Source: an uncultured Allobosea sp.
GTDB lineage: Bacteria; Pseudomonadota; Alphaproteobacteria; Rhizobiales; Beijerinckiaceae
Length of the DNA: 64,000 nucleotides
Reading direction: 5' to 3'
Assembly: GCF_945957345.1 (NCBI RefSeq)
Contig: NZ_CAMFKW010000026.1
Coordinates: forward strand, 1-64,000
The position numbers and the translations under genes are program-made. Positions within the stretch are counted from its first letter, which is position 1. Each line of letters opens with the position of its first letter. The notes beneath the pieces were generated by a model that saw nothing but the letters and a program-made list of their open reading frames with translations, ran no database searches and was not told the DNA's origin. Of this stretch, positions 35,004-59,710 are shown in pieces.

Positions 35004-35645
35004 ATGGTGGCGCGAGTAGCGACCGTGGCGTTCGAGGGCATCGAGGCGCGCGCCGTCGACGTTCAGGTCCAGATCGCGCCGGGCGGCGTCGCCTTCGTGC
35101 TGGTCGGATTGCCCGACAAGGCGGTTGCCGAAAGCCGCGAGCGGGTCCGCGCCGCGCTGCTCGCCTCGGGGCTCGCGCTGCCGGCCAAGCGCGTCACCGT
35201 CAATCTGGCTCCGGCCGATCTGCCCAAGGAAGGCAGCCATTACGATCTACCGATCGCGCTCGCCGTGATGGCCGCGATCGGGGCGCTTCCCGCCGACGCT
35301 CTCTCCGGTTACGCCGTACTTGGCGAATTGGCGCTCGACGGTTCGATCGCACCGGTCGCGGGCGTCCTGCCCGCGGCGATCGCGGCCTATGCGAAGGGGC
35401 AGGGGTTGATCTGCCCAGCCGCGTCCGGCCCGGAGGCGGCCTGGGCTGCCGCCGATATCGATATCCTGGCGCCACGCTCTCTGATCCAGCTCGCCAATCA
35501 TTTCAAGGGCACGCAGGTCATGGCCCGGCCTGAGCCGGCGGTCGCGCGCCAGGTCGGCCCCTTGCCGGATCTCGCCGACGTCAAGGGCCAGGAAAGCGCG
35601 CGGCGCGTGCTCGAGATCGCCGCGGCCGGCGGGCATAACCTCCTA
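35004..35645 (+). pseudogene. comM: comM (YifB-like Mg-chelatase-fold ATPase), 3' part missing
   Basis: The N-terminal 214 residues of ComM are intact: MVARVATVAFEGIEARAVDV, VGLPDKAVAESRERVRAALL, VNLAPADLPKEGSHYDLPIA, then LPDLADVKGQESARRVLEIA. The gene breaks at AAGGHNLL, just before the Walker A motif (GPPGSGKS) expected next, and 12 foreign codons lead to a stop at 35681. About 300 residues, including the whole ATPase core, are absent here and were not found elsewhere in the window. ComM is a hexameric helicase that extends branch migration in natural transformation and other recombination. The next gene is a serine recombinase, so the break is read as an integration site. Confidence 0.9.
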
Positions 35646-35709
35646 ATATCAGCTTTATTATTGTCAGTGGGTGCGAGTTAATGAACAATGTCTGAACCCG
35701 AGCAAACCA

Positions 35710-37409: not shown

Positions 37410-37661
37410 CTACTCGCCGTCGCCGCTGTCGGTCTTTGGTTTTGCGCGGATACCGACGCCGCGCCCGTTCTCGAACAGGAACTCGACGCCTTGCTGTTCG
37501 AGGGCGGTTTGCAAGTCGCGAAGCGTGCGGTCGTGGGGGAGGCGGTCGCCTCCTTCAAAATGGCTGATCGTGCGCTTCGATACGCCTGTCAGATCGGCAA
37601 GATCCTGTTGCGACAGACCCAGCCAACCCCGCGCAGCGCTTATTTGCTGCCTATTAACCAC
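37410..37661 (-). CDS. XRE-family helix-turn-helix regulator
   Basis: An 83-residue protein that is almost entirely one Cro/C1-type HTH: ISAARGWLGLSQQDLADLTG, VSKRTISHFEGGDRLPHDRT, then the helix LRDLQTALEQQGVEFLFENG. The final ...GVEFLFENGRGVGIR pattern is typical of short XRE regulators in rhizobial elements. It is divergent from the nuclease gene, and the palindrome at 37682-37704 lies between them, 21 bp from its ATG, consistent with autoregulation. Confidence 0.85.
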   Translation of the reverse strand: MVNRQQISAARGWLGLSQQDLADLTGVSKRTISHFEGGDRLPHDRTLRDLQTALEQQGVEFLFENGRGVGIRAKPKTDSGDGE

Positions 37662-37681
37662 AGTTGTACTTCAAAATTGCA

Positions 37682-37704
37682 ATTGTGCATTTTATGAGCA
37701 CAAT
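37682..37704. promoter_or_regulatory. palindromic operator candidate
   Basis: A perfect inverted repeat, ATTGTGC and GCACAAT, separated by nine AT-rich bases. It lies in the divergent gap between the XRE gene (start 37661) and the nuclease gene (start 37746). Half-site length and position fit an XRE dimer site. Confidence 0.55.
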
Positions 37705-37745
37705 GATTCCCGTGGACACGCCGTCCACGAGAGGAACCTTACGCC

Positions 37746-38612
37746 ATGCATCATGCAGCCTCCAGCCCTGTTTCCGCCGTCGTCCCCGCCATCCCCACGG
37801 CCATGCCGGTCTCGCCGCCGCGCGCCTTGCCGGCCAATCTGCTCGCCCGGATCGAGAAGGCGGTGTCGGGCGCGGGTTCGGCCGAGTTCGCGGTCGATCC
37901 GCTGCTCGGCCACAGCCTCAGCGCTGTGACGTCGTTCCTGACCTCGGTGGTCAAGCGCTCGGGCGCGGTGATCGAGGACGCGCTCTATGCCGCACTGGTG
38001 CGCAATCGCCGTTTCCTGGTGATGCAGCAGGTGCGCATCCCGATCACCAGGGCGGCCGAGATGTATGTCCAGGAGAACGGTCCCGGACGCGTCGGCGAGC
38101 TCGCGCTCGCCAGCGACGGCGCGACCGTCCGGGTCGGGCATTTCGACATGATCGTGATCGACCAGCAGCGCTCGGTCGCGATGGTGATCGAGATCAAGAG
38201 GGGCTCCGGCATTACCGAGAGCAAGAAGCGCAAGGCGACCGAGCGCGATCTCGCCTGCGCCAGGCTCCAGCTCGCCTCCTATCTGCGCACGCTTCTGGGC
38301 ATCAAGTTGAAGCACTATCGCTGCCACGTCATCGACTTCTACGGCCGGTCGGGGTTCCGCGACGAGCTGACCGTGACCCGCGAGGGGCTCGACAACCTGT
38401 TCGGCGTGCCGGTGATCCCGACCATCGACGCGGCGCTTTCCGCGCTCGAGGCCAGGATGGTCGCGCGCGTGCCGCCGATGCTGCAGATCGCGCAGGAGCG
38501 GCTCGCCGACCGCACGGCCGAACCCGTGCCCCGCCGCGCCGGCCGCGGCGCGCTGGCAATTCTGAGCGGGCGCCAGGCTGGTCCGGCCCTCGCGCTGAGC
38601 CCGCCCGCCTGA
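37746..38612 (+). CDS. predicted PD-(D/E)XK nuclease-like protein
   Basis: A 288-residue protein of no named family. Residues 1-35 are a Pro/Ala-rich lead. A helix with E77 (GAVIEDALYAALVRNRRFLV) is followed by VRVGHFDMIVIDQQRSVAMV (D134) and IEIKRGSGITESKKRKATER (E149-x-K151). This E...D...ExK order is the core of PD-(D/E)XK nucleases; a second helix with RLQLASYLRTLLGIKLKHYR follows, as in that fold. The C-terminal 60 residues are Ala/Arg-rich. It heads the genes that include the AAA+/M41 protease and faces an XRE regulator. Nuclease activity is an inference from the motif alone. Confidence 0.6.
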   Translation: MHHAASSPVSAVVPAIPTAMPVSPPRALPANLLARIEKAVSGAGSAEFAVDPLLGHSLSAVTSFLTSVVKRSGAVIEDALYAALVRNRRFLVMQQVRIPITRAAEMYVQENGPGRVGELALASDGATVRVGHFDMIVIDQQRSVAMVIEIKRGSGITESKKRKATERDLACARLQLASYLRTLLGIKLKHYRCHVIDFYGRSGFRDELTVTREGLDNLFGVPVIPTIDAALSALEARMVARVPPMLQIAQERLADRTAEPVPRRAGRGALAILSGRQAGPALALSPPA

Positions 38613-38706
38613 TCTGACGGCGGCGCTCGCCGCCGCCGGCCTTCGTCTTTACCTCACCTTTGACCCGACGCCGGCCCCGTGCCGGCGATCGCTGGAGCTC
38701 GCCCCA

Positions 38707-39192
38707 ATGACCGCCGCCATCCTTGCCCATCCCGCCACGACCCGAACCATGCCGCACGTAGCCATCGCCGCCTCGGCTTGCGAGGTTGGCGGCTCGGCCC
38801 CGCTGCTGCGGCTCTGGCGCAGCGTGCCTGCCGACGCGATCGCCGATCGCGACCGGGTCGAGCTGCGCGCTCTGATTTGCGCCGTCACGCCGCTTCGGGT
38901 CGAGCACTGGCGCGAGGCGCTCGCCGGCGACCCGGCCGCCGCCGTCGCTGCGGCGCTGAAGCTGTCCGGGCTCGACGTGCTCGACACCCCGCGCCACGAC
39001 CTCGTGATGTCCTTGGTCCTGCTGCACGCGCTTGCCGGCTCGGATGCAGCGCGCACGACGCTCGCCTTCGTGTTGCAGCGCCGGCGCTATCTCGGCGAGG
39101 ATGTCGAGCGGCTGATCGCTTCCTGGCGCAGGAGCGACCGCTCCGCGATCCGCCGCGCCTCCATCAAGGCTCTCATGGAGGCCCTGTCATGA
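38707..39192 (+). CDS. all-helical 161-residue protein, unknown
   Basis: It starts MTAAILAHPATTRTMPHVAI and is Ala/Leu/Arg-rich with at least six predicted helices, for example LLRLWRSVPADAIADRDRVE and HDLVMSLVLLHALAGSDAAR. No catalytic motif or membrane segment is visible and no family is recognised. Its ATGA overlap with the AAA+/M41 gene implies coupled translation and possibly a stoichiometric partner or adaptor of the protease. Confidence 0.6.
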   Translation: MTAAILAHPATTRTMPHVAIAASACEVGGSAPLLRLWRSVPADAIADRDRVELRALICAVTPLRVEHWREALAGDPAAAVAAALKLSGLDVLDTPRHDLVMSLVLLHALAGSDAARTTLAFVLQRRRYLGEDVERLIASWRRSDRSAIRRASIKALMEALS

Positions 39193-41126
39193 GCGCCGAC
39201 ACCACTGCCGACGACGACGCGTTCATCACCGGTATCGACAGCCTGTCGGATAACGGCAGGGATGTCGCCACGACGCCATTGATTCCGCTCGACCTGCTCG
39301 CGCTGATCGCCTGGCACGAGGCCGGAGGCCCGCGCCTGATCTCGCGGATGAAGCGTGGCCAGGCGGTCTTGATCAAGACCCCCTCCGAGATCTGGTATGA
39401 TCCGATCAAGGCGATCGTCGATCGCGAGAAGACCGGCGCGATCGTCTTCGAGGGCAAGCGCAAGGGCGGCGACAAGAAGCCGAGCGATGCCTTCGTCGTC
39501 GATCTCCTGCAGGACGGGCGTGGCGTAGTCGGCCTCAGTGTCGATGCCGGCCTGCTGCCGCCGCTGCTGCGCACCAGCGCCGATGCCGAGCTGATCATCC
39601 CGGCGCTGAGCCCCGCTTTGGTCCGCCGGGCGATCGCCGGATTTTTTGGCAAGCGCAGCCCGGTCGTGAAGCCGGACGACATCGCCGGCCTCGACCTGAT
39701 CGAGATCGCCGCCGCGATCCGGCCGTCCTCCAGTCCGCAGGCGAGCCTGCGCCGGCTGCGACAGGCGAGCGCGCGCAAGGCCGCGCCCGACGCGATCGAC
39801 GACACGCCCTTGCTTTCCGAACTCTCAGGCCTCGGCGAAGCAAAGGATTGGTGTCTCGATCTCTGCGCCGCGCTCGATGAGGCTCGCGCCGGCACGATCT
39901 CTTACGGCGAGATCGAAAGCGGCATCTTCTACGGGCCGCCCGGCACCGGCAAGACCCTGCTCGCCCGCTCGCTCGCCAGGAGTGCGAGGGTTCCCCTCGT
40001 CGCGACCAGCGTGCCCGACTGGTTCATGCGCAAGACCGGTCATCTCGGGGATGTCATTCAGCAGATCGACGAAGTCTTTGCCCAGGCGCTCTCGCTAGCG
40101 CCGAGCGTCCTCTTCCTCGATGAGATCGACGCCTTGCCAGATCGTGCCGTCGCCGATGCCCGGTCGCGGGAGTGGTGGGCAAGCGTCGTGTCGGCGCTTC
40201 TCACCCGGATCGATGGATGCCGTGCCGCCAAGCGCGGGGTCGTGCTCCTGGCCGCGACCAATTTCCTGTCGCATCTCGACGCGGCGCTGACGCGGCCAGG
40301 CCGCTTCGACCGCAAGCTGCACGTCCCGCCACCCGACACCGCAGGCCTCGCCGCCATCCTTCGTTCCCATCTAAAGGGTGATTTGGCGCAAGCCGATCTT
40401 CTTCCGCTCGCCCGCCTGATGCCGGGCGCGACCGGCGCCGACATCACCGCGATCGTCAAGGCGGCGCGTCGCCTCGCCCGCAGCGAAGGGCGCCCGCTCA
40501 ACCTCGCCGATCTCCACCGCGCCATCCTGCCGGCGGACGGGCGCAGCGAGACCGAGCGCCGCCATGTCGCGATCCATGAGGCCGGCCATACCGCAGTCGC
40601 GCTCGCGCTCGGGTTCGAGGTCGCGCGGGTCTCGATCCGCAGCGAGGGCACGGCAGGCGGCGTAACCGAACACGCGATCCCGAGCGTCTCGACGCTCGCC
40701 GACATCGAGCGCCGCGTCCTCGTCCTGCTCGCCGGCCGCGCCGCCAACATGGCGGCCGGCGCCGCGCCCGACACCGGCGCCGCCAGTGATATCAGCGAAG
40801 CGACGAGGCTGCTCACCGCAGCCCAGGTCAGCTTCGGGCTCGGCGACGGGCTCGTTGCCCGCACCAGCCCGGACGGCGCACTCGCACTGGTCGGGCGCGA
40901 TCTTGCGCTCGCCAGTACCGTCGACGTCCGGCTCAAGAGCCTGATGCGGCAGGCGCATCAGCTCGTCGCCAGCGAGCGCACCCTGATCGAGGCGATCACG
41001 GAGGCCCTGATGCGCCAGCAGGTCGTCGATGGCGATGAGCTCGCGGCGATCGCCAATCGCAGAGACGGCGATGCGGACGGGCTTGGCTCTGCCGCCTCGC
41101 CGGCGGTAGCGACTGCAAGGCCCTGA
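39189..41126 (+). CDS. soluble AAA+/peptidase M41 (FtsH-like) protease
   Basis: A 645-residue protein. Residues 1-240 are a unique region with no transmembrane helix. The AAA+ module follows: Walker A FYGPPGTGKTLLARSL (249-256), a pore-loop-like VPDWFMRKTGHLGDV, Walker B VLFLDEIDAL (308-314) and the arginine finger ALTRPGRFDRKL. The M41 domain has the zinc motif HEAGH (463-467) and the later acidic ligand in GAASDISEATRLLTAAQ. It thus keeps all FtsH catalytic parts but lacks the two membrane helices of true FtsH, so it should be cytosolic with a different substrate-recognition domain. The ATG at 39189 overlaps the preceding stop. Confidence 0.85.
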   Translation: MSADTTADDDAFITGIDSLSDNGRDVATTPLIPLDLLALIAWHEAGGPRLISRMKRGQAVLIKTPSEIWYDPIKAIVDREKTGAIVFEGKRKGGDKKPSDAFVVDLLQDGRGVVGLSVDAGLLPPLLRTSADAELIIPALSPALVRRAIAGFFGKRSPVVKPDDIAGLDLIEIAAAIRPSSSPQASLRRLRQASARKAAPDAIDDTPLLSELSGLGEAKDWCLDLCAALDEARAGTISYGEIESGIFYGPPGTGKTLLARSLARSARVPLVATSVPDWFMRKTGHLGDVIQQIDEVFAQALSLAPSVLFLDEIDALPDRAVADARSREWWASVVSALLTRIDGCRAAKRGVVLLAATNFLSHLDAALTRPGRFDRKLHVPPPDTAGLAAILRSHLKGDLAQADLLPLARLMPGATGADITAIVKAARRLARSEGRPLNLADLHRAILPADGRSETERRHVAIHEAGHTAVALALGFEVARVSIRSEGTAGGVTEHAIPSVSTLADIERRVLVLLAGRAANMAAGAAPDTGAASDISEATRLLTAAQVSFGLGDGLVARTSPDGALALVGRDLALASTVDVRLKSLMRQAHQLVASERTLIEAITEALMRQQVVDGDELAAIANRRDGDADGLGSAASPAVATARP

Positions 41127-41807: not shown

Positions 41808-42124
41808 GAGGCAGAATAAAGCTCGATCTCGCTTCCTGGAACCATGCAGCGGCCGCAGCGCGTTGCAGGCCACCGCCGACAGGTGGAGGCCGGGCCGAGC
41901 CAGCTGATTTTACCACCGCTTGCGCGCGCTGCAGCCGGCCCGCCGCGGATTCAGCTCTGTAGCCTGTAGCATGTAGCCTACACCCTACAGGCGCTACATG
42001 GATCGGAGGGGGCTGGAGCGGTGAGTTAACCGCTCGATCGGGCGCGCCGTCAGTCGAACTTGGACGGCGGCGTGAATCGTGGTAATGTGTGTTATACATT
42101 CCTCAAACGCGAGCCACAACCGCC
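41808..42124. other. noncoding control region upstream of the kfrA-like gene
   Basis: About 317 bp without a credible gene. The notable content is the heptad array at 41957-42000, listed separately. An alternative GTG start for the KfrA-like protein lies at 42089. Confidence 0.5.
41957..42000. repeat. symmetrical TGTAGC heptad array
   Basis: Three direct copies of TGTAGC at 7-bp steps (41958, 41965, 41972) are followed by the reverse motif three times (CCTACA at 41977 and 41984, GCTACA at 41993). The whole forms an imperfect palindrome of direct and inverted repeats, 125 bp before the KfrA-like start. Plausible roles are operator for that protein or an origin/partition site. Confidence 0.65.
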
Positions 42125-42721
42125 ATGCCGACCGACGACGACCAGCCCGAGATCAACCCGCCGCCCTTCACCGAGGGTCCCACCGAGGACGAGCGCGTCG
42201 AGGAGCGCCACGTTCATGCCGCCTGCGACGCGTTGAACGCGCAGGGCAAGAAGCCGACCCATGACGGCATCCGCGAGCTCTTGGGCAAGGGCTCCTACAC
42301 CACCATCACCGCGTTCCGCGCGACCTGGCGGCCGAAGTCGCTCGATCTTGCGCCACCCTTGCCGGAGAAACTGATCGAGACCGGACATTCCTTCGCGGCC
42401 GAGTTCTGGCGCGAGGCGGTGCTTTTGGCTAACGGCCAGCTGGTGCAGGAGCGCAAGGCGGCCAGGGAGATGCTTGACGAGGCGCAAGGCGCGATCCGCG
42501 CGCTCGAAGCGCAGGTCGAGGTCGGCGAGGCGAGGCTTGCCGAGGCGCGCGGCAAGCTCGAGGAGGCGGCCGGCAAGCTGCGCGCCGCCCATCACCAGCA
42601 AACCGAACTGCGCGACAAGATCGTCCGTTGCGAGGGCGAGCTCAAGGTGCTGCGCCCGCTGATGGAGCGCCTGCAGCTTTCGGCCGGCGCGGGCGATGCC
42701 GGGGCTGCCGGCAGTCCGTGA
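42125..42721 (+). CDS. KfrA-like DNA-binding coiled-coil protein
   Basis: A 198-residue protein. Residues 20-75 (ERVEERHVHAACDALNAQGK, THDGIRELLGKGSYTTITAF) match the KfrA N-terminal DNA-binding domain of plasmids and mobile elements. From about residue 95 to 190 it is a long coiled coil (LLANGQLVQERKAAREMLDE, EVGEARLAEARGKLEEAAGK). KfrA of broad-host-range plasmids binds its own promoter and supports stable inheritance. The array at 41957-42000 is the obvious candidate site. The ATG at 42125 is preferred to a GTG at 42089. Confidence 0.8.
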   Translation: MPTDDDQPEINPPPFTEGPTEDERVEERHVHAACDALNAQGKKPTHDGIRELLGKGSYTTITAFRATWRPKSLDLAPPLPEKLIETGHSFAAEFWREAVLLANGQLVQERKAAREMLDEAQGAIRALEAQVEVGEARLAEARGKLEEAAGKLRAAHHQQTELRDKIVRCEGELKVLRPLMERLQLSAGAGDAGAAGSP

Positions 42722-58862: not shown

Positions 58863-59192
58863 ATGACGAGCAAGACGACGAACAAGTTCTCGCCTGAGGT
58901 GCGTGCCCGCGCGGTGCGGATGTTGCTGGATCACGAGGCCGAGCATCCGTCGCGCTGGGCGGCGATCACGTCGATTTCGGGCAAGATCGGTTGCACGGCG
59001 CAGACGCTGAACGAGTGGGTGAAGAAGGCAGAGGTCGACAGTGGCTGTAAGCCCGGCCTGACGACGGACATGGCGGCCAAGCTCAAGGCTCTCGAACGCG
59101 AGAACCGCGAGTTGCGTCAGGCCAATGAGATCCTGCGTAAGGCATCGGGGTATTTTGCCCAGGCGGAGCTCGACCGCCCGTTCAAGCGATGA
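58863..59192 (+). CDS. IS3-family OrfA
   Basis: A 109-residue HTH protein, [40 protein letters not shown], with a C-terminal leucine-zipper-like helix [27 protein letters not shown] lies just upstream. Its stop overlaps the OrfB start (ATGA). Intact in itself, but its OrfB partner is broken. Confidence 0.88.
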
Positions 59193-59710
59193 TCGCTTTC
59201 ATCGATGATTACCGAAGGATCTATGGGGTCGAGCCGATCTGCAGGGTGTTGCCGATCGCCCCGTCAACCTACCATGCTCATGCCTCGCGGCGTGGCGATC
59301 CTACCAAATTTTCGAACAGGGCGAGGCGCGATGCCGCCCTGTTGACCGAGGTCAAACGGGTTTTCGACCAGAACTTCCAAGTCTATGGCGTGCGCAAGGT
59401 CTGGCGGCAGATGAAGCGAGAAGGACACCAACTCGCTCGCTGCACCGTGGCGCGCCTGATGCGTAGAGCGGGTCTGCACGGTGTGATCCGCGGCAAACCC
59501 ATGCGCACCACGGTGGCCGACAAGGCGGCACCGTGCCCGCTCGATCATGTGAACCGGGTCTTCCGTGCGCCAGCACCGAACATGCTTTGGCTCTCGGACT
59601 TTACCTATGTCAGCACCTGGTCGGGCTTCGTCTATGTCGCCTTCGTCATCGACGCCTACGCCCGCCGCATTGTTGGCTGGCGCGTGTCGCGGACCGCGCA
59701 TGCCAGCTTC
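59189..59710 (+). pseudogene. IS3-family OrfB transposase, truncated
   Basis: [40 protein letters not shown] and the first two catalytic Asp residues (LWLSDFTYV, VIDAYARRIVGW) are present. After RTAHASF the sequence switches to IS110, so the third catalytic residue (Glu) and the C-terminus are lost. Confidence 0.85.

Follow-up and report, generated by a model that had tools for sequence, protein, structure and literature searches.

The window analysed here, 64,000 nucleotides of contig NZ_CAMFKW010000026.1 (positions 1 to 64,000) from an uncultured Allobosea sp. (assembly GCF_945957345.1), contains a cassette in which an XRE-type regulator gene diverges from three genes encoding a predicted PD-(D/E)XK-fold nuclease (P1), a small helical protein (P2) and an AAA+/M41 protease without a predicted membrane helix (P3). 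Relatives of these genes recur together in unrelated mobile elements, and their common denominator is a nuclease-fold protein plus an AAA+ ring, often under XRE, with P2 as a frequent third part. The reading we favour, with roughly even confidence, is that of a mobile-element-borne ATPase–nuclease conflict module, most likely anti-phage or anti-plasmid, in which the AAA+ ring, usually a protease, controls the nuclease. The cassette has the following features:

37410..37661, minus strand: XRE-type regulator (HTH_31, HTH_3), divergent from P1
37682..37704, no strand assigned: operator-like dyad ATTGTGC-N9-GCACAAT, between the XRE gene and P1
37711..37729, plus strand: second dyad, CGTGGACACGCCGTCCACG, directly 5' of P1 (RNA folding z -2.07)
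37746..38612, plus strand: P1, predicted PD-(D/E)XK-fold nuclease (D134, E149, K151), from model, fold matches and conservation
38707..39192, plus strand: P2, small helical protein, likely coupler
39189..41126, plus strand: P3, AAA+/M41 protease of 645 residues without a predicted membrane helix
39285..39788, plus strand: P3 N-terminal domain, residues 33-200, possibly degenerate AAA-like, without P-loop (strands and helices from the model)
39924..40328, plus strand: P3 AAA+ ATPase domain, residues 246-380 (PF00004, 3.2e-30)
40545..41048, plus strand: P3 M41 peptidase domain with HEAGH, residues 453-620 (PF01434, 1.1e-16)

Predicted nuclease, protease and likely coupler

The nuclease core that a first-pass annotation had proposed for P1 is borne out by its predicted model (mean predicted local distance difference test score 84.2), which contains the PD-(D/E)XK alpha–beta core with the strands bearing the D and the (E/D)xK, and by second-look fold matches, XisH entries included, that support the same fold. 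In an alignment of 33 rows, D134 is present in 33/33 and K151 in 32/33, with E or D at position 149 in 26/33. We regard P1 as a predicted PD-(D/E)XK-fold protein, probably active as a nuclease. It has no family above cut-off among Pfam, NCBIfam and other profile sets, so that no such profile gives it a non-nuclease identity, no PADLOC match at E values up to 1, and its profile found nothing among Protein Data Bank sequences at E up to 1. An identity as Shedu (SduA) was rejected (SduA_C, PF14082, E 0.09, 13.4 bits against a cut-off of 27), as were the other matches below cut-off: HSDR_N_2 (0.23), the ClpXP specificity-enhancing factor (0.16) and a PHROG (0.18). None of the 25 stretches of viral contigs that fit the P1 pattern encodes a P1 relative; among plasmids, three records matched P1, and one matched the query from locus L064.

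For P3, both domains exceed their cut-offs and the catalytic sites are conserved. Of 63 aligned rows, 52-53 cover the ATPase and HExxH sites, with the Walker A lysine in 52/53, Walker B and the arginine fingers in 53/53, and the residues of H-E-H in 52, 52 and 51 of 52. Membrane helices are not predicted (top 19-residue hydropathy 1.5). The description of P3 as an AAA+/M41 protease with Walker A/B, arginine finger and HEAGH and no membrane helix therefore stands, and no profile above cut-off gives it the identity of a conjugation gene. P3 lies outside the FtsH equivalog (NCBIfam TIGR01241, 188.2 bits against a cut-off of 600); a different gene in the same genome, truncated at a contig end, reaches 636.5 bits on that model. 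The p97 chain 7lmz_A aligns to P3 residues 16-448, and a corrected profile comparison of the P3 N-terminal domain with the family's own AAA domain gave a probability of 23.5% and P 0.00087 (controls 0.061 to 0.56), which is no more than suggestive of a degenerate second AAA-like domain. Among 50,697 phage records 110 matched P3, none over more than 80% of P3 among the matches listed; 1,477 plasmid records matched, six of them over more than 80% of P3 among the matches listed. The genome of the window is Bosea-like: where relatives of P1 and P3 with 76-87% identity carry a name, they belong to Bosea.

P2 overlaps P3 by ATGA, as the first-pass annotation had it. It matches no Pfam family above cut-off, none is listed for 106 homologues, and PADLOC yielded nothing at E up to 1; all 26 aligned sequences have W37 and D98. 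In three loci (L043, L048, L052) a part bearing GIY-YIG-like motifs precedes P2 within a single open frame, which, together with the position of P2 before the AAA+ gene, makes P2 a likely coupler between nuclease and AAA+ ring. The Pfam GIY-YIG model scored 0.0012 and 0.007 on two unfused relatives, slightly below cut-off, and the nuclease label for those genes is therefore probable, not certain.

The divergent XRE gene and palindromic operator claimed earlier are likewise present, as an HTH_31/HTH_3 gene and an operator-like dyad in the gap. The gap between the XRE gene and P1 measures 84 bases and holds two perfect dyads with 7-base arms; on shuffling it, two dyads arose in 0/2000 cases and one or more in 85/2000. 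The dyad CGTGGACACGCCGTCCACG is identical in the Bosea loci L059 and L060, and a 6-base-arm variant occurs in the Bosea locus L061. Loci L065-L067 have a different hairpin with a probable P1 ribosome-binding site in its loop (L065 780-830), hinting at possible translational control of P1. Five leaders gave modest z-scores on folding (-1.23 to -2.23), so that RNA-level control is only a lead.

Linkage and exchangeable slots

Linkage was assessed over 32 distinct P1 loci, the window included and the other 31 recounted (L040 and L068, one Bradyrhizobium place, form a single entry). P3 is adjacent in 20 of them, any AAA+ partner in 23, a divergent XRE gene in 20 and P2 in 14. Most of the hidden Markov models behind the gene maps were seeded from these very loci, which makes the map matches dependent on the seeds. 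When the P1 profile was used to pattern-scan genome contigs, a search biased to close relatives, 12 loci emerged: P2 follows P1 in 12/12 (weakly, at 39 bits, in L061, and cut by a contig edge in L069), XRE precedes P1 in 11/12, and P3 follows it in 9/12 (cut by a contig edge in L066); one locus has an AAA+ gene with DUF2130, and of the remainder L068 has DUF2130 without AAA+ and L069 stops at the contig edge. A survey of 397 genomes of the bacterial order, covering 141 genera, found P1 in 18 genomes (14/141 genera), with P3 adjacent in 9, another AAA+ in 2, XRE in 7 and P2 in 3. P3 also lies beside P1 in two of three plasmids: one locus is XRE-P1-P3, where P3 contains a transposase-like gene (by eye), the second has P1 with an ATP-binding gene and with a Zn-protease encoded separately, and the third is XRE-P1-exonuclease.

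P3 N-domain matches occur in 57/397 genomes, about one place per four genomes, from which chance adjacency with P1 is estimated at far less than one case. Pairwise distances are correlated between P1 and P3 (r 0.62, 18 loci), P1 and P2 (0.86, 9 loci) and P2 and P3 (0.88, 9 loci), values reached by 0/2000 label permutations, although shared species history contributes to them. The co-occurrence on which the first-pass annotation had made its proposal depend is thus found, with P3 adjacent in 20/32 P1 loci. Its three-gene set needs amending: the genes do recur together, but the trio is one version only, with P2 in 14/32 P1 loci and exchangeable nuclease and AAA+ slots.

The P2 profile detected P2 in 15/397 genomes of the order and in 8/398 of the phylum. 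Two of these eight, outside the order, were discarded as marginal, with E about 5e-4 and, in one of them, stops; a candidate in genome G232 (L050, one internal stop) that a better P2 model did not recover was discarded as well; credible P2 places from both surveys all fall within the order. Beyond the surveys, P2 occurs on a short contig labelled Thiobacillaceae (L069), in a metagenome-assembled genome labelled only Proteobacteria (L064) and as a protein of a metagenome-assembled genome labelled Stutzerimonas stutzeri.

Six GIY-YIG-like genes occupy the P1 slot, three of them fused to P2. The P3 slot is also filled by another AAA+, often with DUF2130; this protein, called MoxR-like as a label of this analysis, has a Pfam AAA match and a weak AAA_5 match. 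Phosphoesterase, DUF6634 and exonuclease genes are recurrent companions. Bradyrhizobium-type loci (L038, L062) read XRE-P1-P2-phosphoesterase-DUF6634-AAA+-DUF2130, three others (L064, L065, L067) XRE-P1-P2-phosphoesterase-P3-RNase_T exonuclease, and four (L125, L126, L128, L131) P1-DUF6634-P3; in L135-L137 the M41 part is a separate gene or piece, with M41 confirmed in L137. Two side variants were seen: L042 is of Bradyrhizobium type without P1 before P2, and in L041, L045 and L051 P2, phosphoesterase and P3 are preceded by a protein whose start is ParA-like by eye and whose C-terminal part is DUF6634. The window's genome itself contains further relatives. One is another P2-P3 pair (identities of 56% and about 50%), in which a GIY-YIG-like gene fills the P1 slot and which has a serine recombinase of its own; the other is a third P3-type gene:

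L006 2554-6031, contig C87: second P2-P3 pair, followed by a serine recombinase and a small HEAGH protein
L007 6765-8882, contig C12: third P3-type gene; a Mu-transposase-type gene lies nearby and DUF6634 behind it

The small HEAGH protein (L006 8512-9030) matches M41 at E 0.029, below cut-off.

Mobile settings and defence neighbours

The cassette of the window lies directly behind two features that mark an insertion:

35004..35681, plus strand: 5' half of yifB (comM), the element's insertion gene (TIGR00368 positions 5-216; positions 213-499 on contig C68)
35671..37299, plus strand: large serine recombinase, the element's left end (Resolvase and Recombinase Pfam domains above cut-off)

The recombinase lies at the yifB break, and the halves of yifB are split between contigs C26 and C68; together these identify the region as an integrated element, in agreement with the element context claimed for it. 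Against the XisF model the recombinase has E 4.8e-15, yet 55.5 bits compared with a cut-off of 375. Several loci lie within integrase, serine-recombinase or Tn7-like elements; L066 and L067 have integrases next to the module, in L067 beside a Dus gene, and on plasmid NZ_CP090580 (L102 3390-17844) a Tn7-like element has genes of a cyclic-oligonucleotide-based anti-phage signalling system (CBASS) adjoining XRE-P1-exonuclease, the P1 of which has S at the E149 position.

Defence neighbours were scanned in 78 of 165 flanking genes from L059-L070, with 78 of 218 genes, drawn by seed from 20 regions chosen at round coordinates, as control. The flank tally lists 25 of 76 families with members unnamed, and loci were therefore assigned via Pfam, annotation and eye. 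It includes CBASS cyclase, E1-E2 and phospholipase matches; L063 adjoins a Cap15 gene, L060 adjoins PRTase-CE and ORC-CDC6-like genes, and AbiEii is confirmed in L064 and assigned to L067 by a tally of two and by eye. None of the 78 control genes matched CBASS or AbiE. The IscS-like and SbcB matches of the flanks are possibly as generic as the control matches. In L132 a P1 relative adjoins Mrr-helicase and GHKL ATPase genes (Pfam), and L133 is alike by eye; this combination is possibly another undescribed set. The neighbours support conflict-system cargo, in a small sample. Between the defence and element-control roles offered by the first-pass annotation they favour defence, in a minority of loci only, and a defence role is probable.

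Proposed function, alternatives and known systems

In the mechanism we envisage, the XRE repressor would hold the operon at a low level. Its products would be a PD-(D/E)XK nuclease, a small coupling protein and a cytosolic, probably hexameric FtsH-type protease, with P2 linking the AAA+ ring to the nuclease or to the complex that the nuclease targets. ATP-driven unfolding, joined by proteolysis in the M41 versions, would restrain or remodel the nuclease until infection tips the balance and DNA is cut; the ATPase-controlled nuclease would then attack foreign DNA or abort the infection, an outcome that McrBC and DUF4297-HerA reach in different ways. Two directions of control are alike compatible with the sequence: P3 may degrade P1 (restraint) or may remove an inhibitor (activation). 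Conservation of HExxH implies that proteolysis matters where P3 is used, while remodelling must suffice where another AAA+ fills its slot. A more specific and distinctly tentative form is proteolysis-gated nuclease immunity, in which a cytosolic FtsH-type protease with a degenerate AAA-like sensor domain and P2 as adaptor would serve exchangeable PD-(D/E)XK or GIY-YIG-like nucleases, infection altering proteolysis of the nuclease or its inhibitor.

Several observations weigh against a nuclease controlled by an AAA+ protease in defence. Foldseek gave no P1 match at E <= 0.001 (best E 1.8e-3), and position 149 is S or N in 7/33 rows, with I at 151 in one. P2 is missing from 18/32 P1 loci, and 9/32 have no AAA+ partner in the stretch examined (including L069, at a contig edge). 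P3-type N-domains outnumber P1 (57 against 18 of 397 genomes), so that P3 has other contexts, and M41 is absent from the Bradyrhizobium version, so that not every version can depend on proteolysis. Recognised defence neighbours occur in only 6/32 P1 loci, the 15 survey loci lying outside the flanks scanned as a set, and the control was not free of matches either: mad2 and mad3 (two members each), mad8 (one) and a desaturase (one). XisH entries among the P1 fold matches also count here, as they fit control of excision.

An addiction device of the toxin–antitoxin type, in which P1 would damage DNA as a toxin, be kept in check by P2, by P3 or by the two together, and maintain the element in the population, phage effects being secondary, would account for the XRE gene with its operator-like dyad, the conserved protease and carriage on plasmids and integrated elements. 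We consider it unlikely: many P1-P3 loci are without P2, and a 645-residue AAA+ protease, elsewhere with phosphoesterase and exonucleases, would seem to exceed the needs of such a device. Next in probability, rather unlikely and still a main rival, is that the cassette controls how the element is excised, transferred or repaired, with P1 acting on element DNA in the manner of XisH, Hjc or TnsA and P3 removing a repressor or recombinase; the XisH fold matches speak for it, the defence neighbours for the conflict module. A role in quality control or stress response outside conflict, carried by chance on mobile DNA, would suit the FtsH-like P3 and the many loci with metallophosphoesterases and DUF6634 proteins of unknown role, but is improbable given the patchy presence (P1 in 18/397 genomes) and the mobile settings.

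ATPase–nuclease pairs are a recurrent theme in bacterial immunity, and FtsH is usually a membrane quality-control protease. P3 resembles FtsH (HflB) in its AAA+ and M41 HExxH domains (PF00004 and PF01434 above cut-off), but differs in having no predicted membrane helix, in its N-terminal domain and in its partner genes. McrBC pairs the AAA+ protein McrB with the PD-(D/E)XK protein McrC; by contrast, P3 has FtsH-type AAA+ and M41 protease domains, P2 and XRE are additional, and neither P1 nor P3 matched a McrB or McrC family in Pfam or PADLOC at E up to 1. In IetAS, the ATPase IetA is reportedly partnered by the protease IetS. The P3 AAA+ domain matches IetA (PADLOC, 1.4e-25), but the match is confined to that domain and slightly beyond, P3 carries its own M41 protease, and IetS had no match among the seven window genes scanned. 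Upx, said to have a role in defence, is a chain of 1212 residues (structure 9wuf); P1 has no PADLOC match at E up to 1. XisH proteins, small proteins of integrated elements, are among the P1 fold matches, yet P1 has no family match by sequence and the partners differ. DUF4297-HerA is a two-gene anti-phage ATPase–nuclease complex whose enzymes are activated by assembly (PMC11291478); the present ATPase–nuclease module is likened to it by description, and the abstract does not present HerA as a protease.

No description of the module was found in the literature searched, subscription papers and preprints lying outside the search; the ATPase–nuclease pairing is a known theme, and the protease component is without precedent in that literature. 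If the proposal is true, a nuclease defence system would, for the first time to our knowledge, have an FtsH-type protease as its control unit, within a modular architecture found mainly on mobile elements of Hyphomicrobiales. Linking a soluble FtsH relative to nucleases that can be exchanged would add a control principle in which the effector complex either undergoes proteolysis or carries it out. The linked families (P1, P2, P3, DUF6634 and the phosphoesterase) are testable as a unit, P1 and P2 being without family annotation. The cassette is carried in soil and plant-associated bacteria and recurs across many species; it may account for some uncharacterised mobile-element cargo in relatives of Bosea, Bradyrhizobium, Methylobacterium and Rhizobium.

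P3-type genes also lie near transposase-like genes of about 740-820 residues in L176, L177, L179 and L186 (by eye; weak Pfam matches in L176), the P3-type gene of L186 adjoining an OLD-like ATPase as well. Elsewhere in the window, a plasmid-type gene for a KfrA_N protein adjoins the module (42089-42721), and an ALIL pseudoknot (59147-59263; Rfam, 112.9 bits) is presumably an IS3-type frameshift element.

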